From Planctomycetota bacterium (GTDB lineage Bacteria; Planctomycetota; Brocadiia; JAJRTI01), in contig JAJRTI010000359.1 of assembly GCA_024278415.1 (NCBI GenBank), positions 1 through 12,392 on the forward strand: a stretch of DNA of 12,392 bases, given 5' to 3'. Position 1 is the first letter of the stretch; every line of letters starts with the position of its first letter. Below are positions 4,555 to 12,392 of the stretch, in pieces. Position numbers and translations under genes: made by a program. The notes beneath the pieces are model-generated. The model did no database searches, was not told the origin of the DNA, and saw nothing but the letters and a program-made list of their open reading frames with translations.

Positions 4555-4612
4555 CGCTTCCATACCGGGATCGTCCTCCACGCGGCCTCCAATCGCAAGG
4601 TCGCGGCAGGAC

Positions 4613-4708
4613 GGAGGCCACGAAGACACCAAGCCGCACCAAGGAAAGCCAATTTCGAGTCCGATTCATCTTTGTGTCACTTCGTGCCTTGGTGTCTTAG
4701 TGGCCTCC
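4613..4708. repeat. imperfect inverted repeat between serS and the dehydrogenase gene
   Basis: The 21-nt arm at 4613-4633 is complementary to 4688-4708 at 20 of 21 positions. Partial pairing continues inwards (GCACCAAGGAAA against TGTCACTTCGTGC). The arms consist of phrases related to CACGAAGACACCAAG. This kind of sequence resembles dispersed intergenic repeats of many bacterial genomes (from memory, not searched). It could fold into a long hairpin in RNA and separate serS from the downstream gene, but there is no T-tract to make it a typical terminator. Confidence 0.8.
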
Positions 4709-4750
4709 GAGGCCGTGCCTCACAGATACGAAATGGCGGAGAACCCAACA

Positions 4751-5866: not shown

Positions 5867-6060
5867 GCCTCCGCAGGGCATGTCCCTGCGGAGCGGCGAT
5901 TGGAAGCCAGAAAAGAAGTTCTGAGTTTACTTCTCTCCCCCGCCCTTGCCTTTCCGCTCGGCAAGCCGAGCGGAAAGGCAAGGGCGGGGGAAACGGTTCC
6001 GGCACGCTTCTGTCTGGCTCTCAATCATGGCCCCGCACGGACATGCCGTGCGGAGGCCTA
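5867..6060. repeat. large imperfect palindrome with a perfect 27-bp inverted repeat at its centre
   Basis: The centre is a perfect inverted repeat: 27-nt arms at 5936-5962 and 5965-5991 around an AA loop, running through GCCCTTGCC and its complement GGCAAGGGC. Symmetrical around the same centre are two further hairpins, CTCCGCAGGG-CATGT-CCCTGCGGAG (5869-5893) and CCGCACGG-ACATG-CCGTGCGG (6033-6053). The second is an inverted, slightly diverged copy of the first. The stretches between also match in inverted orientation (GATTGGAAGCCAGAAAAGAAG at 5899-5919 against the complement of about 6007-6026). The whole is therefore a head-to-head duplicated or palindromic mobile-element-like repeat. It encodes nothing believable: frames on both strands simply repeat the same palindromic translation. 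Confidence 0.88.
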
Positions 6061-6305: not shown

Positions 6306-6473
6306 TGCGCGTCGTACGCATACGTCGCCGAGTTGCCCAGCGCGTCTGTCACTTCGATCAACCTCCGCGTTGCGTTGTACGTCTGCTCCGTGCGGTTGCC
6401 GAGCGAATCGACCGTGGCCGCGAGCAGATTTGACGTTATTGTACTTGAACTGCGTCACATTGTTGACGAACAT
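6306..6473 (-). pseudogene. frameshifted RHS/YD-repeat gene remnant
   Basis: Read on the minus strand from an ATG at 6473, this matches the first residues of the RHS segment that starts at 8962: MFVNNVTQFKYNN against MNLGSVTELEYNK. One extra base near 6427-6433 then shifts the frame. In the new frame it continues LAATVDSLGNRTEQTYNATR, then RLIEVTDALGNSATYAYD, which aligns with ADPLGNRTEQTYAAAGRLIEVKDALGN of the intact copy. Similarity stops near 6306, right after the second YD repeat, and what follows is unrelated. It is therefore a dead fragment, the oldest visible member of the RHS array. It begins 49 bp after the ankyrin gene, as the intact copy begins 50 bp after its own upstream gene. 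Confidence 0.8.
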
Positions 6474-6521
6474 TTTTGAATGGCGTATCGGATGTGGACG
6501 ACGATTTGGCCACGTCAACCG

Positions 6522-6546
6522 TCTATTGCGTATGGCGTCCCCTGAT
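6522..6546. repeat. recurrent cassette-boundary sequence, copy 1
   Basis: These 25 bp match 9012-9036 at 24 positions (single mismatch: C at 6541 against G at 9031). On the minus strand the sequence encodes the last residues GRHTQ and the TAG stop of the ankyrin-repeat gene, exactly as the other copy does for an unrelated membrane protein. It marks the junction between an immunity gene and the RHS segment after it. Confidence 0.9.
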
Positions 6547-7044
6547 TACTGCAACTTTGCTGACGGAGGCTCCGCCTTCAAAGAGAAGGCGGATGGCTTG
6601 GGGATTTCCGGACGGCTTCGCCCAGTCCAACGGTGTGGCGCCACCAAGGGCTCTGCAATCAACATCAGCCCCCGATTCAATCAGTACAGATATCAGTCTA
6701 TCATATCCTTTCATTGCCGCACTATGGATAGGTGTGAATCCCTTCTTGTCCCTCGCATTGGGATTTGCGCCATGCCGCAGCAGCAGCGCCACAAGCTGGC
6801 CGTGGTCACAGGCCACGGCTAGGTGAAGTGGCGATAGCCCCAATTCGTCCTGTGCATTCACGTCAACTGCCGACCCCGCTAGCATACGTCTGACCGCCCG
6901 AATGTCACCGGCCTTGCAGGCCTCATGAATCGAGCCCGCACGAACAGCGGATAGGCAAGGCAGCGTGCTCAACACCATCTGCATCAAAATGCACGCGGTC
7001 CTAGCGGCAGAGCCCGCGTGCTTTGTCAAACGCGGATTGTCCAT
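6523..7044 (-). CDS. ankyrin-repeat protein, probable immunity partner of the PLA2-type RHS toxin
   Basis: From the ATG at 7044 the product is 173 residues. About four ankyrin repeats are visible: IHEACKAGDIRAVRRML, then GLSPLHLAVACDHGQLVALL, then GFTPIHSAAMKGYDRLISVL, then GATPLDWAKPSGNPQAIRLL, each ending in a GA(N/D)-type turn. The N-terminus has a basic region followed by a hydrophobic stretch (TACILMQMVLSTLPCLSAV) ending in VRA-GS. This resembles a cleavable signal peptide and would place the protein in the periplasm, facing an incoming membrane-active toxin. It overlaps the end of the PLA2-tipped RHS gene (stop at 7001) by 44 bp. The start is uncertain: the frame is open to 7113, and ATGs at 6984 and 6978 just after the RHS stop are possible but would cut the signal peptide. 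Its last five residues lie in the shared 25-bp boundary sequence. Ankyrin proteins are known as immunity proteins in other polymorphic-toxin loci; the pairing here is inferred from position. Confidence 0.85.
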   Translation of the reverse strand: MDNPRLTKHAGSAARTACILMQMVLSTLPCLSAVRAGSIHEACKAGDIRAVRRMLAGSAVDVNAQDELGLSPLHLAVACDHGQLVALLLRHGANPNARDKKGFTPIHSAAMKGYDRLISVLIESGADVDCRALGGATPLDWAKPSGNPQAIRLLFEGGASVSKVAVIRGRHTQ

Positions 7045-8962
7045 GATTATGAACAGCACCGTAGTATATGTACGCGAGATTGGCACATAGTTGGCTTCCG
7101 TTGTATTTGTCAAGGCAAACCTCGATCATACAGTCTTCGAACTGTTGGTCACATGCATTCTTACTGCCAGCCTTGGGGTCACCGTAGCATTCATCATGCC
7201 CTTTACAACAGCCGGAGAAGTCAAATCCCCCTGGCTTGTCCGGAATTAGCCCTGCTGTTGAGCCACTGCCGCACCAGTGCGGCTTTTGCGGCTTTGGCTT
7301 CGGAGGCCTCCATGGTTTCCAAGGGCGTGGTCCGGGGGCGGGTAAAGCCCATGGCCCAGGTTGATACGGGTGGGGATATGGTACACCGCCGGAGCCTGGA
7401 AGCGGGCGTCTTAGCCTAGGAGTAGGTCTTGGGCGGGGCCCCACCTGGCCTCGCTCCCTATGCCTCTGGGGCCGATTGCGCTGCTCTGGGTATGGGAACA
7501 ACCATCTCTCTATGGGCATAGCCTGCAACCCGCTGGGATCAATTACGGCCAATGGAGAAGACGGGAATAGGTACATAGGGATGGCCAGATCACGGTCGCG
7601 TGCGACAAAGCTCCCTCTGCCCGGGGAATACGCTCTAAAGAGGGGCAGCCGGAGTTCGCCAGTATCGCGCACACTCAGGTACGTCCCTGGAAAGACGAAC
7701 CGATTGGGCGAGGAGCCAGTCTCGGATGTGATTTCGCCGAAGGGGAGGAAAGCGTAGGTCTTGGCCGGCGCGGCGGTGGAGTCCGTTGGCGCGTGGATGC
7801 CGCCTACCTGATCCTCGTGGTAGTAGTAGTCCACGTTCGTGGCGACATCGTGTTGCGTCACGAGGCTGTACGCGCCTTCGATGGGCGTGTACCCGTGCGC
7901 ATACGCTCGCGTCAGCGCGTTCTGGTTGTCGAGTTCTGCCACGATGTCCAACCCGTCCCACACGTAGCGCGTCGGCCCGGTCGAGTCCGTGATCTTCACC
8001 CGCGTCCCGCCCCCGTCATACCCAAACGTGTCCTGCACGCCGCTGGGTAATGACAGTTGTTTGATCAGGTCTTCCGGCGTCCAGTCGAACGTCGTGGTTC
8101 CTTCGCTGCCGGTCTTTGTGATCAGCGACCCGTTGCCGTCGTACGCGTAGGTCGTAGTTTCGTTGTTCGTGGTTTCGGTGAGCAATTCGTTCGCGGCGTT
8201 GTACGTGTAGTCGGTCTGGATGCCGTCCTTGACTTCGGTGAGACGATTGCCGACCGCGTCGTAGGTCCAGGCGAGGTCGTATTCGCCCTGCTGCTCGTCG
8301 AGGTGCTTGACCGCGGACGTGAGCCGGTCGAGTGCGTCGTTGCCGTAGTCGATCCACGAGCCGTCCTCTCGGTCAATGCGGGTGATGTTGCCGACTGCGT
8401 TGTGCTCGTACGCAAACGTGCAGATCGGGCTGTTGTCGCTCTTGCAGTGCGCCAGGCTCGTGAGACGGCCGACGCTGTCGTACACATACGTCGCGTACGT
8501 GCCGTTGCCGTAGTCCTTGCGGGTCAGCCGGTCCGCGGCGTCGAACTGGTAGTTCGCTGCGGGATCGGTTTCTGACCAGTGCGTCCAGATGACTTGTGTC
8601 ATGCGGCCCGCGGCGTCGTAGCTGTAGCGCGCCTCGCTGGCGTCGGGGTAGATGAGCTTCGTGCGGTTGCCGACCGCGTCGTATTCGTAGCCCGTGGTGA
8701 CGCTCCCCGGCTCCACCCGCTGGGTCGGTCGGTTCAGTGCGTCGTACGCCCACGTCGCTTCGCCCGGCCAGTCCGTGCGCTTGACGCGGTTGCCTACCGC
8801 GTCGTGCGCGTAGGCGGTCGTATTGCCCAGAGCGTCTTTCACTTCGATGAGCCTCCCGGCCGCGGCGTACGTCTGCTCCGTGCGGTTGCCGAGCGGATCG
8901 GCCTTCGCGATGAGCAGGTTCACCTTATTGTACTCCAACTCCGTCACGCTGCCAAGGTTCAT
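7001..8962 (-). CDS. truncated RHS/YD-repeat protein with C-terminal phospholipase A2 toxin domain
   Basis: A 653-residue RHS segment. Residues 1-430 are YD repeats (for example YDAVGNR, YDALNRPTQRV) plus the RHS core end (YYYHEDQVGGIHAPTDS, FLPFGEITSETGSSPNRFVF) that builds the toxin-enclosing shell. The core ends at DPSGL (475-479), the usual self-cleavage boundary. The 174-residue tip has a Pro/Arg-rich linker (about 496-562), then a compact Cys-rich domain. This carries both phospholipase A2 signatures: CCKGHDEC (585-592; catalytic H589) matches C-C-{P}-x-H-{LGY}-x-C, and CDQQFEDC (604-611; D605) matches C-D-x5-C. A Gly-rich CGSGSTAG loop (564-571) fits the calcium site. It should hydrolyse membrane phospholipids. 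The upstream end is abnormal: no ribosome-binding site, no delivery domains, and RHS-like reading frame before the ATG up to a TGA at 9005-9007. It looks like a displaced 3' piece of a full RHS gene and may be silent. Confidence 0.88.
   Translation of the reverse strand: MNLGSVTELEYNKVNLLIAKADPLGNRTEQTYAAAGRLIEVKDALGNTTAYAHDAVGNRVKRTDWPGEATWAYDALNRPTQRVEPGSVTTGYEYDAVGNRTKLIYPDASEARYSYDAAGRMTQVIWTHWSETDPAANYQFDAADRLTRKDYGNGTYATYVYDSVGRLTSLAHCKSDNSPICTFAYEHNAVGNITRIDREDGSWIDYGNDALDRLTSAVKHLDEQQGEYDLAWTYDAVGNRLTEVKDGIQTDYTYNAANELLTETTNNETTTYAYDGNGSLITKTGSEGTTTFDWTPEDLIKQLSLPSGVQDTFGYDGGGTRVKITDSTGPTRYVWDGLDIVAELDNQNALTRAYAHGYTPIEGAYSLVTQHDVATNVDYYYHEDQVGGIHAPTDSTAAPAKTYAFLPFGEITSETGSSPNRFVFPGTYLSVRDTGELRLPLFRAYSPGRGSFVARDRDLAIPMYLFPSSPLAVIDPSGLQAMPIERWLFPYPEQRNRPQRHRERGQVGPRPRPTPRLRRPLPGSGGVPYPHPYQPGPWALPAPGPRPWKPWRPPKPKPQKPHWCGSGSTAGLIPDKPGGFDFSGCCKGHDECYGDPKAGSKNACDQQFEDCMIEVCLDKYNGSQLCANLAYIYYGAVHNHGQSAFDKARGLCR
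7689..8805. repeat. duplicated RHS core DNA, copy 1 (matches 10465-11581)
   Basis: This 1117-bp stretch aligns with 10465-11581 at a constant offset of 2776 bp at both ends, implying no net insertion or deletion, with high identity by eye. To its left both similarity at the DNA level and at the protein level break off at the NRFVF segment. To its right the copy here jumps over 756 bp (252 codons, in frame) present in the other copy and resumes in RLIEVKDALGN. It is a substrate for homologous recombination between the two toxin tips. Confidence 0.9.
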
Positions 8963-9011
8963 TTTCGAATCAAGCGACGGCGGCGGATGACGAACTCGAA
9001 CGCCTCAGCCT

Positions 9012-9036
9012 TCTATTGCGTATGGCGTCCGCTGAT
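9012..9036. repeat. recurrent cassette-boundary sequence, copy 2
   Basis: Partner of 6522-6546 (24 of 25 identical). It encodes the final GRHTQ and stop of the membrane protein gene on the minus strand. The spacers downstream of the two copies are also related: both lead within about 50 bp to an SKM reading frame that starts an RHS segment. Confidence 0.9.
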
Positions 9037-9762
9037 GTCGTCCGGATTTCCGGATGACGCACGGTTATGGGCGCCCCCCAATGATGCCGGTCTCAAGAAG
9101 CCATTTCGGATCATCTCGCCGACGCATCGCGAGGCAAAGCCAGGGACGCGGATGGTAGTCGTGGTGGTGCTCCACGACACTCCGTCTGAGGAAAGGAAGG
9201 CATCCCACGGTGGGCCTGTGTCAATCTCAAACATGAGCAACTGGAAACTGCGGTCCGTGTACAGCATGACGGTGACACGGGTTGTGTACCTGCCTTGCCC
9301 TGGCGACGCAATGTCCGAACGCCGGAAGGCCTGACAGAAGAACAGCAACTTTTCCGGTCGGCGCTCATCCAGCAGAACGCCAGAATCATCCTCTATCGTC
9401 AGCCGCGTGATATGCCTCATGCCTATCGCCTTGGTCTCGTGTAGGAGTCGCTCCTGCACATGGAAAGAACGCACGGCCCATATGTTGAGCGCAACCAGGC
9501 CTATGAACGCCACGGTCCAACGACTGACCGCGTTCGTACGGGGATGCCCACTCCGTCGCGCCACATTCATGATGTAGTAGGGGAGACATGTCGCCACGCC
9601 GGGCAATGCGGCGGCCCAGAGCCTGTCAAACCAGAAAATGTCGGGATACAGGAATGCCATCACAACGTAGGCGGCACCGCCTACCAACACCACTGGCCAT
9701 GCGTTAGGGCCTTGACCACACCACTTGCGGATGCCGCCGATCATTCCAGAATCTGCTGCCAT
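9013..9762 (-). CDS. 3-TM membrane protein, probable immunity partner of the Gly/Cys-rich RHS tip
   Basis: I recognise no named family. With the ATG at 9762 it has 249 residues. Three hydrophobic helices are visible: about 22-39 (WPVVLVGGAAYVVMAFLY), 48-67 (LWAAALPGVATCLPYYIMNV) and 82-97 (WTVAFIGLVALNIWAV). They are followed by a soluble domain of about 150 residues with beta-strand character (ITRLTIEDDSGVLLDE, RVTVMLYTDRSFQLLMFEID). It begins 11 bp after the stop of the large RHS gene, and its Shine-Dalgarno sequence overlaps that stop, so the two are translationally coupled. That is the standard layout of toxin tip followed by immunity gene. A membrane immunity protein fits a toxin acting on or through the membrane. 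An ATG at 9789 overlapping the RHS gene is an alternative start. The last five residues (GRHTQ) are shared with the unrelated ankyrin protein. Confidence 0.8.
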   Translation of the reverse strand: MAADSGMIGGIRKWCGQGPNAWPVVLVGGAAYVVMAFLYPDIFWFDRLWAAALPGVATCLPYYIMNVARRSGHPRTNAVSRWTVAFIGLVALNIWAVRSFHVQERLLHETKAIGMRHITRLTIEDDSGVLLDERRPEKLLFFCQAFRRSDIASPGQGRYTTRVTVMLYTDRSFQLLMFEIDTGPPWDAFLSSDGVSWSTTTTTIRVPGFASRCVGEMIRNGFLRPASLGGAHNRASSGNPDDISGRHTQ

Positions 9763-9771
9763 ACGGCATGA

Positions 9772-9775
9772 CCTC
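9772..9775 (-). promoter_or_regulatory. Shine-Dalgarno sequence overlapping the RHS stop codon
   Basis: On the minus strand GAGG (9775 down to 9772) sits 9 nt before the ATG at 9762 and shares two bases with the TGA stop (9776-9774) of the upstream RHS gene. This supports translational coupling and the choice of start; the ATG at 9789 has no equally placed site. Confidence 0.55.
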
Positions 9776-12392
9776 AATCCCTGCAGCATCCAATGCGTAC
9801 CGGCCCCGTAAGAAGTTTGTACCTACACCAAGTCACCTTGATCTGCCAGCTCCAGCCTCTCCGGCCCAGACCAACACCACCACCGACCTCGATAGTGCCG
9901 CTCGGCTCGCCGGGGAGCCACCAAGTATTACGGCTGAAATCACGATAGCCAATATCAACACCTCCCCCCACGACTCCCGCGCTTGCCCCCAACTCCAGGA
10001 ACCAGCCGCGGTAATCTTCGGGCCTGCATGTCCGTCCCCTCAAGTTCACCACGCCACCACCTCCAGATACACCAATCGCCGCTCCAAAACATATCTTCCG
10101 AAACACCATCTCCAGCTTATTGCCTTGCCCATCACAACAACGAACCCGCGCCAGGCCACCGCCAATAAGGAAATGCGCCTCTCCACCACCCCCACGACCG
10201 TTTCCTGGACCCGGCGATGGAGCAGGTCCGAAATGTGTACTGCCAGGGGGATCCTCTCGCCTATACGGTTGCGTCATATGCGGGAAGAACAAGGGCCAAA
10301 GCCCGGAAGGATCCAGGTGCCCCAGTGGATTGCTGCGGCAATAAGCGTTTGGCACCGAGCCATCGAGGGGGTCACGACCCAGGAATAGGCCCACGGACGC
10401 CTGGTAGCAACGGACCGGGCTGACGCGCAGATCGCCCATGTCCGCGAGCCCCATATACATCGCCGGAAAGACAAACCGATTCGGCGCAGAGCCGGTTTCA
10501 GACGTGATCTCGCCGAAGGGGAGGAAGTCGTAAGTGTTGGCGAGCGCGCCGGCGGAGTCCGTGAGCGCGTGGATGCCGCCAACCTGGTCTTCGTGGTAGA
10601 AGTAGTCGGAGTTGGATGACACATCGTGCTGCGTCACCAGGCTGTACGCGCCCTCGATGGGCGTGTAGCCGTGCGCATACGCGCGCTTGAGCGCGTTCGG
10701 GTCGTCCAATTCAGCTACGATGTCGAGGCCGTTCCAGACGTAGCGCGTCGGGCCAGTCGAGTCCGTGATCTTCACACGCGTCCCGCCGCCGTCGTATTCG
10801 AACGTGTCCTGCACGCTGTTCGGCGACGTCAGGCTCTCGATCAAGTCTTCCGGCGTCCACGTGAACGTCGTCGTTCCTGCGCTGTCGGTCTTCGTGGTGA
10901 GAGAACCGTTGCCGTCGTACGTGTAGGTCGTGGTTTCGTTGTTCGTGGTCTCCGTCAGCAACTCGTTCGCGGCGTTGTACGCGTAGCTGGTCTCGATGCC
11001 GTCCTTGACTTGGGTGAAACGATTACCGACTGCGTCGTACGTCCAGGCGAGGTCGTACTCGATCTGCTGCTCGTCGAGGTGCTTGACCGCGGACGTGAGC
11101 CGGTCGAGCGCGTCGTTGCCGTAGTCGATCCAGGTGCCGTCTTCGCGGTCGATGCGCGAAATGTTCCCGACCGCATCGTGCTCGTAAGCAAACGTGCAGA
11201 TCGGGCTGTTGTCCGGCTTGCGATGCTCAAGGCTCGTGAGCCGGCCGACGCTGTCGTAAGCGGATGTCGCGTACGCGCCGTTGCCGTAGTCCTTGCGGGT
11301 CAGCCGGTCCGCGGCGTCGAACTGATACGTCGCCGCGGGCTCGGTTTCGGACCAGTGCGTCCAGACGACCTCCGTCATGCGGCCGGCCGCGTCGTAACTG
11401 TAGCGCGCCTCGCTGGCGTCGGGGTAGATGAGCTTGGTGCGGTTGCCTGCGGCGTCGTATTCGTATGCCGTGACCACGTTCCCAGGCTCCACCCGCTGCG
11501 TGGGCCGGTTGAGGGCATCGTACGCCCACGTCGCGTCGCCCTGCCAATCGGTGCGCGTCGTGCGGTTGCCTACCGCGTCGTATTCGTTCACTACGCTCGT
11601 GCCGTCGTAGTAGTCGATGCGGGTGAGCCGGTTGACTGCGTCGTACGCGTAGAGCGTGTCGTGGTTGTTGCCGTCCGTGCGTTTGACCAGGTTCGAGTTC
11701 GCATCGTATTCGTACGCCTTGCTCTTGCCGATGGCGTCCGTCTCGGTCGCTAGCCGGTTCAGCGCGTCGTACGCGAACGTGGTCGCGTGCCCGTTGCCGT
11801 CGGTGACCGTGAGCAGGTTGCCGACCGCGTCGTATGAGAAATTGGTCTGGTAGCCGGCTGGGTCGATGATCTGCGTCTGCCGGTCCAGGCTGTCGTACGT
11901 ATACTCCGTGCTTCGGCCCAGGGCGTCGGTGAAGGCGATGCGGTTGCCCACAGCGTCGTACGCGTAGGCGCTGCTCGTTCCGTCCGCCAGGGTCACGGTC
12001 ATCAGGCGGTTCAAGCTGTCGTACGCGTACGTGGTTACGTTCCCCAACGGATCCGTGACGGTGAGCTGGTTGCCCACTGCGTCGTATGCGTAGCTCGTGC
12101 TGTGGCCCAGGGGGTCGGCCTCCTGGGTGAGCCGATCCAGCGCGTCGTAAGCCATGGTCCGGGTGTGGCTCTGGGGATCGGTGATGCTGAGGGTGTTGCC
12201 GACCGCGTCGTAGGTCATGGCCGTCTGCCCGCCCGCGGGGTCGGTGATCTTGGTCAGCCGGCCCCGGGAGTCGTATTCGTTCGTGGTGACCCGGCCCAGT
12301 GCGTCGGTCTCTTGCGTCAGGTCGCCGGCGCCATCGTATGCGTACGTCGTTGAATTGCCGAGCGCGTCTTTCACTTCGATGAGCCTCCGCGC
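9774..12392 (-). CDS. RHS/YD-repeat polymorphic toxin, 3' part, with Gly/Cys-rich C-terminal tip
   Basis: At least 872 residues; the gene runs off the right edge, so the N-terminus (PAAR-like, secretion or other delivery domains) cannot be seen. The reading frame continues as ARRLIEVKDALGN to the edge, so the GTG at 12374 is not the true start. Numbering from that GTG, residues up to about 640 are some two dozen YD repeats (YDAVGNR, YDSLNRL, YDALDRLTQE types). The RHS core end follows (YFYHEDQVGGIHALTDS, FLPFGEITSETGSAPNRFVF, LGRDPL), ending at DPSGL (688-692), the expected self-cleavage boundary. The 174-residue tip (693-866) starts Pro-rich, then becomes Gly-rich with alternating hydrophobics (HFLIGGGLARV, ELGASAGVVGGGVDIGY, IEVGGGVGLG) and seven cysteines, two as CC pairs. 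I know of no enzyme motif in it; a beta-structured membrane-active toxin is a guess supported by its membrane-protein neighbour. Confidence 0.9.
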   Translation of the reverse strand, partial: ARRLIEVKDALGNSTTYAYDGAGDLTQETDALGRVTTNEYDSRGRLTKITDPAGGQTAMTYDAVGNTLSITDPQSHTRTMAYDALDRLTQEADPLGHSTSYAYDAVGNQLTVTDPLGNVTTYAYDSLNRLMTVTLADGTSSAYAYDAVGNRIAFTDALGRSTEYTYDSLDRQTQIIDPAGYQTNFSYDAVGNLLTVTDGNGHATTFAYDALNRLATETDAIGKSKAYEYDANSNLVKRTDGNNHDTLYAYDAVNRLTRIDYYDGTSVVNEYDAVGNRTTRTDWQGDATWAYDALNRPTQRVEPGNVVTAYEYDAAGNRTKLIYPDASEARYSYDAAGRMTEVVWTHWSETEPAATYQFDAADRLTRKDYGNGAYATSAYDSVGRLTSLEHRKPDNSPICTFAYEHDAVGNISRIDREDGTWIDYGNDALDRLTSAVKHLDEQQIEYDLAWTYDAVGNRFTQVKDGIETSYAYNAANELLTETTNNETTTYTYDGNGSLTTKTDSAGTTTFTWTPEDLIESLTSPNSVQDTFEYDGGGTRVKITDSTGPTRYVWNGLDIVAELDDPNALKRAYAHGYTPIEGAYSLVTQHDVSSNSDYFYHEDQVGGIHALTDSAGALANTYDFLPFGEITSETGSAPNRFVFPAMYMGLADMGDLRVSPVRCYQASVGLFLGRDPLDGSVPNAYCRSNPLGHLDPSGLWPLFFPHMTQPYRREDPPGSTHFGPAPSPGPGNGRGGGGEAHFLIGGGLARVRCCDGQGNKLEMVFRKICFGAAIGVSGGGGVVNLRGRTCRPEDYRGWFLELGASAGVVGGGVDIGYRDFSRNTWWLPGEPSGTIEVGGGVGLGRRGWSWQIKVTWCRYKLLTGPVRIGCCRD
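10465..11581. repeat. duplicated RHS core DNA, copy 2 (matches 7689-8805)
   Basis: Partner of the 1117-bp core duplication. This copy is embedded in the longer gene, with 756 further bp of YD repeats (about 11582-12337) that the other copy lacks. Third-position differences dominate by eye, so both copies have evolved under protein constraint or been kept similar by gene conversion. Confidence 0.9.

Follow-up and report, generated by a model that had tools for sequence, protein, structure and literature searches.

Contig JAJRTI010000359.1 of a Planctomycetota bacterium (GenBank assembly GCA_024278415.1), analysed here over all of its 12,392 nucleotides (the window), very probably carries an array of RHS polymorphic-toxin modules built up by a core, a tip and an immunity gene, at least one of them an orphan (8962-7001 together with an ankyrin gene), plus a stub. 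The whole array lies on the minus strand, with two RHS segments that have different tips and small genes, followed by the stub (Table 1). What had been noticed is real, and most of it is of a known kind. New are the orphan core, which is maintained and has a marked boundary, and the family of tip A, the tip of segment 1, which has no described function.

An earlier note on this DNA had described three same-strand RHS segments with related starts; two such segments are found, but the third is only a short stub. The reading of the locus as an orphan tip/immunity array agrees with the layout of the first two. Homology between the cores reaches up to a DPSGL motif, which ends the core at residue 688 of segment 1 (open reading frame, ORF, counted from 12374) and after 474 residues in open frame in the orphan. 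Exactly 174 residues follow the motif in both segments, the two tips are unrelated, and 3' of each there is a separate, overlapping small ORF that differs between the modules; the tips of 174 residues and the different small genes had been noted earlier. The orphan has no room for an N-terminal or export region because immunity gene A ends at 9013 and the orphan ORF opens at 8962. The repeats of PF05593 are strongly supported, and the cut-off of the RHS repeat-associated core TIGR03696 (32.5 bits) was missed with 25.9 and 22.9 bits.

The core is indeed duplicated. The two copies align over 1126 bp without gaps, where 1117 bp had been given earlier, with 85.1% identity and an E-value reported as 0.0, so the duplication is not due to chance. 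At the amino acid level 318 of 374 positions are identical. Identity is 77-90% in every 100-bp bin throughout, and the three longest exact matches measure 48, 45 and 38 bp. According to the Nei-Gojobori method the synonymous divergence (dS) is 0.53 and the nonsynonymous divergence (dN) 0.084, a ratio of 0.16, and neither copy has a stop codon. The orphan core is therefore old but not decaying, and an ungapped alignment of this length at 85% identity, with low dN/dS and no stops, also makes misassembly unlikely. The earlier note took the PLA2 cassette for an older or alternative tip that had been displaced, or for a reservoir for switching. With so low a dN/dS, a reserve that is maintained or a gene in use is a better fit than a dead remnant, and a core under selection at the amino acid level would have a start of its own for expression or would be taken into use again from time to time. 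The orphan ORF has an ATG at 8962, and promoter-like hexamers (10/12) are found at 8955-8927 on the minus strand with a counterpart at 6466-6438, also on the minus strand, in the same place in both boundary repeats. Promoter-like sites in the region are somewhat above the shuffled level (6 compared with a mean of 1.4 in shuffles), and terminator-like sites are at the shuffled level only.

Both downstream copies start in a boundary repeat, which opens with an identical 19-bp box that was overlooked in the earlier note. The box sits exactly at the ends of two unrelated small genes, so that both of them end in GRHTQ, and in shuffled sequences (n=200, at most 3 mismatches) the mean number of such shared boxes was 0.00. 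A left boundary in common speaks for a single type of event, or for one tandem duplication, and against two random breaks. The stub and the orphan also have a 29-bp exact repeat in common at their starts. RHS similarity in the stub is split between frames and stops at 6308, and a 144-codon frame that continues from the stub into a hairpin region (6361-5927) gives a sub-threshold RHS match (17.7 bits against a Pfam cut-off of 22), so neither a third tip nor a third immunity gene can be recognised. The frame shift claimed for a decayed third cassette is thus present, but "cassette" overstates what is left. The stub is a left-boundary remnant; a third module may have been lost here or may never have been complete. 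A perfect palindrome (5937-5990, 26-bp arms, 2-nt spacer) lies between the stub and the dehydrogenase gene, in a region that folds far better than shuffled sequences (z -8.7). No unusual fold was found at either 19-bp box.

Table 1. Features of the RHS array (positions are those of the window)
Feature	Position	Strand	Description
RHS segment 1	9774..12392	-	5' end cut by contig; YD-repeat core; PF05593 RHS_repeat E 4e-90
Tip A	9777..10298	-	Gly/Cys-rich; 174 residues long, following DPSGL; mainly beta by prediction
Putative immunity gene A	9013..9789	-	258 aa; overlaps tip A stop
Boundary repeat copy 1	8798..9036	-	240 bp; 75% to 6308-6546
19-bp box, immunity gene A end	9012..9030	-	identical to copy at 6522-6540
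Orphan RHS ORF	7001..8962	-	653 aa; without N-terminal delivery region
Duplicated core in segment 1	10456..11581	-	85.1% to copy in orphan; dN/dS 0.16
Duplicated core in orphan	7680..8805	-	85.1% to copy in segment 1; dN/dS 0.16
PLA2 tip	7004..7525	-	174 residues after DPSGL; CCKGHDECY motif at 7210-7184
Putative immunity gene B	6523..7044	-	173 aa; ankyrin repeats; hydrophobic N-terminal stretch
RHS stub = boundary repeat copy 2	6308..6546	-	240 bp; frame-shifted; no recognisable tip
19-bp box, immunity gene B end	6522..6540	-	identical to copy at 9012-9030

Comparable loci were searched for in 246 genomes from one phylum, Planctomycetota. RHS cores were found in 29 genomes and at least 47 places (E ≤1e-20, best 6 candidates per genome), and 40 of the 47 places were examined, leaving out the orphan inside locus L117 and the six weakest. 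A same-strand RHS piece is present downstream of the tip in four of the 40 loci, so that a comparable plan exists in a minority of loci, which supports the array reading. The 560-aa orphan of L117 carries a different tip, and a Y1_Tnp gene (42.4 bits, cut-off 23) lies downstream; of the four loci this one alone combines, like the window, tips that are unrelated with an orphan that is long and intact. In L130 the orphan measures 417 aa, and both its tip and the gene linked to it are relatives of the first pair. L118 possesses a short piece of core bearing another tip, 3' of an IS110-type transposase gene. In L103 a 72-codon stub has been copied from the start of an RHS ORF (80.7% over 218 bp). 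The leucine-rich-repeat gene directly after that stub (5999-7051 in L103) looks like an immunity gene bereft of its toxin. A pattern scan of genome contigs, made with poor patterns, gave 18 distant RHS loci, and RHS matches on plasmids, enterobacterial plasmids included, were all below 60% identity. The seryl-tRNA synthetase of the window is at most 48% identical to those of the 246 genomes (234 with a match). An orphan core kept under selection in a genome this distant from all those sampled makes it testable whether such a core is a reserve or a remnant.

RHS cores encase and deliver the tip. In the array proposed here the PLA2 tip (tip B) would hydrolyse phospholipids in a rival cell and each small gene would protect its owner. 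Recombination through the duplicated cores, with their long exact runs, might transfer the PLA2 tip to an RHS gene that is full-length and exportable, by analogy with Salmonella. Several observations weigh against this interpretation. The N-terminus of segment 1 lies off the contig and a full-length main gene is thus only presumed, and 36 of the 40 RHS loci have no downstream piece (8 of the 40 had less than 2 kb of downstream sequence). Toxicity, immunity and tip swapping are putative. The main and orphan copies in Salmonella, where orphan recombination is described, share 522 bp at 95% (PMC3967940); the cores in the window are less alike, so recombination may be rare. Finally, an ATG and a promoter-like site are present, so the orphan might be expressed rather than silent.

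Possibly segment 1, too, is an orphan, inside a longer cassette array whose true full-length exported RHS gene would lie further upstream, since the contig breaks off within the repeat with which the other copies start. This deserves serious attention, although it falls short of an even chance. The earlier note had segment 1 begin with related sequence; its real start is cut off by the contig end, but the first 58 bp that are visible (12391-12334) do match the stub at 6369-6312, and 12388-12334 matches the orphan at 8856-8802. By alignment, the contig breaks beside the expected site of the 29-bp exact repeat, and a Pfam scan of the visible part of segment 1 gave no N-terminal domain. On the other hand, the core of segment 1 exceeds that of the orphan by 756 bp (12 x 63 bp, 252 codons) and stays in frame; 12 additional YD units are what a fuller gene would have.

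It is rather doubtful that the two RHS ORFs are just a pair of ordinary paralogues from a tandem duplication, both expressed, with neither reserve nor switching. Such paralogues would agree with the dN/dS and the lack of stops in the second core, with the orphan's own ATG and with the promoter-like site, but an export or delivery region cannot fit between 9013 and 8962, and promoter-like matches are weak evidence in view of the shuffles. An assembly artefact that has fused two separate RHS loci is very improbable: the window may be a metagenome contig and its repeats contain exact runs of 29-48 bp, but the divergence is spread over every bin of the cores, non-repeated sequence (9774-9037) separates the copies and similar arrangements are present in other assemblies. 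An array of modules with at least one orphan is kept as the preferred reading.

The tip of the orphan resembles prokaryotic phospholipase A2 (PLA2). The tip alone scores 33.0 bits against PF09056 (cut-off 29.4) and the whole ORF 30.1 bits, and in the PDB it matches the bacterial PLA2 7ygk (E 6e-7). The catalytic His-Asp motif is present (CCKGHDECY), and the His, the Asp and six cysteines are invariant in five aligned PLA2 domains, out of eight available. A protein search with the PLA2-tip protein rendered one relative (P0001), with the match confined to the core end. Matches to the tip were found in seven of the 246 genomes. In one of these, G112, a 2092-aa RHS ORF (RHS_repeat E 2e-50) with a signal-like N-terminus ends in a PLA2 domain just below two Pfam cut-offs (33.4 against 34 and 20.4 against 29.4 bits) and is followed by a leucine-rich-repeat protein. 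The other six matches are in open frames, five short (189-307 aa) and one of 1729 aa. The ankyrin repeats of the product of immunity gene B are well supported (E 1e-25), and both rows returned by PADLOC are on this protein. Its ATG at 7044 overlaps the end of the PLA2 ORF; the frame can also be opened by a TTG at 7113. Judging from these similarities, tip B is probably a secreted-type phospholipase A2 that would damage the membranes of rival cells, with the ankyrin protein as its likely antidote.

The pairing of toxin and immunity protein is here proposed by position only. It is plausible because Tox-PLA2 domains on RHS proteins, ankyrin immunity proteins and a complex of a type VI secretion system (T6SS) lipase with an ankyrin protein have all been published. 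Tox-PLA2 is a PLA2-fold domain on RHS proteins, and PMC3482391 lists planctomycetes among its carriers; its table row there has no immunity partner, whereas an ankyrin gene follows here. The ankyrin immunity family Imm-ank of the same source also has ankyrin repeats encoded in a gene adjoining the toxin, as in immunity gene B, but is listed there with Tox-AHH. Tle6/Tli of Enterobacter, described in PMC11470151, is likewise a case of ankyrin-repeat immunity to a phospholipase, here a T6SS lipase, including a secreted immunity form, and the structure of the complex has been solved. In contrast to the PLA2-fold RHS tip, Tle6 is a T6SS-delivered alpha/beta-hydrolase.

The 19-bp box was also compared with a motif, ATTCNGGGGACACCATACTTAATT, with which it agrees in 19/24 and 17/24 positions, free N counted; a score of at least 17 is reached at 6 sites in 1.19 million background positions. 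A looser form of the motif is found at 35 sites in 11 of the 246 genomes and at none with a reversed control. The motif resembles the terminus of a REP or of a small transposon. The CGCAAT ending of the window box is in none of the 35 sites, and the exact 19-mer was not found in viral contigs. Five of six motif sites in viral contigs lack an ATTC-type lead and look like chance. The link between the REP-like motif and the window box is suggestive because CGCAAT outside the window is seen only in such chance-like viral contigs. In a comparison of seven hand-picked genomes, matches to the REP-type transposase Y1_Tnp numbered 22, 13 and 9 in three genomes with the motif and 7, 1, 1 and 0 in four without it, and few of the matches adjoin a motif site. 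A GC-richer form of the motif got no support from plasmids and was rejected.

Tip A has a homologous region at about 9777-10193 and belongs to a family whose members found so far are all at RHS C-termini. Protein searches gave at least five members, a lower bound since these searches were limited by candidate length and one of them scored the best 7987 candidates. No member was found in the 246 genomes (a search without a positive control) or in the plasmids and viral contigs searched. Tip A is probably another toxin, by homology. It has no sequence match in Pfam or the PDB, and a five-member profile rendered 0 matches among PDB sequences at E ≤10. Foldseek gave no significant match. For both models of tip A the structures that match best are the Vap proteins of Rhodococcus equi, which is a lead and not a result because the models are low in confidence. 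A Pfam scan of three of the five members gave no Vap match at E ≤10. The Vap proteins are eight-stranded antiparallel barrels with homologues that are described as uncommon yet present in different phyla (PMC6852188), and the Vap proto-gene in Rhodococcus is thought to be horizontally acquired. Unlike tip A, each Vap is a secreted protein of its own, and the setting is different. A far-reaching scenario, which we regard as unlikely, is that the tip A family is small, RHS-borne and Vap-like, with a beta-barrel acting on membranes, that the Rhodococcus Vaps descend from such a tip and that the 19-bp box is a REP/RAYT-like edge marking insertion or duplication of RHS cassettes. In any case tip A represents a small, well-conserved and unannotated toxin-tip family with a candidate fold.

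The product of immunity gene A has two hydrophobic segments near its N-terminus, and this membrane protein is the putative antidote to tip A. It matched no family above cut-off in Pfam, NCBIfam or PADLOC and was found in none of the 246 genomes, in a search without a positive control.

Some other features of the contig lie outside the array. A 628-aa ORF at 226-2112 on the plus strand matches nothing in Pfam or NCBIfam at E ≤1, and just 3' of it there is a head-to-tail 121-bp repeat (2215-2541) made up of two complete copies (98%) and part of a third. A small protein encoded at 2559-2990 on the minus strand has an excisionase/MerR-like helix-turn-helix and a cysteine-rich C-terminal part. An imperfect inverted repeat (4612-4709, 73%) is found between the genes for seryl-tRNA synthetase and the dehydrogenase.

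It is established that rhs loci can have orphan modules and that cassettes recombine (PMC3150448, PMC3967940, PMC3482391), arrays of orphan rhs modules have been reported earlier (PMC3150448), and recombination with standalone toxin cassettes is given in the abstract of PMC3482391 as a general feature of polymorphic toxins. A literature search on orphan RHS toxins in planctomycetes brought up a single paper, on the T6SS of Agrobacterium. The orphan rhs-CT/rhsI modules described for Salmonella, Yersinia and Dickeya (PMC3967940, PMC3150448) resemble the one in the window in having a core fragment, an unrelated tip after DPxGL, a linked small gene, a same-strand downstream position and a shared core, as in Salmonella LT2. 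Orphan modules of this kind usually lack translation start signals; the one in the window keeps its long core in an open frame with an ATG. It also differs in the lower identity between the cores and in the boundary box that is common to both downstream copies.

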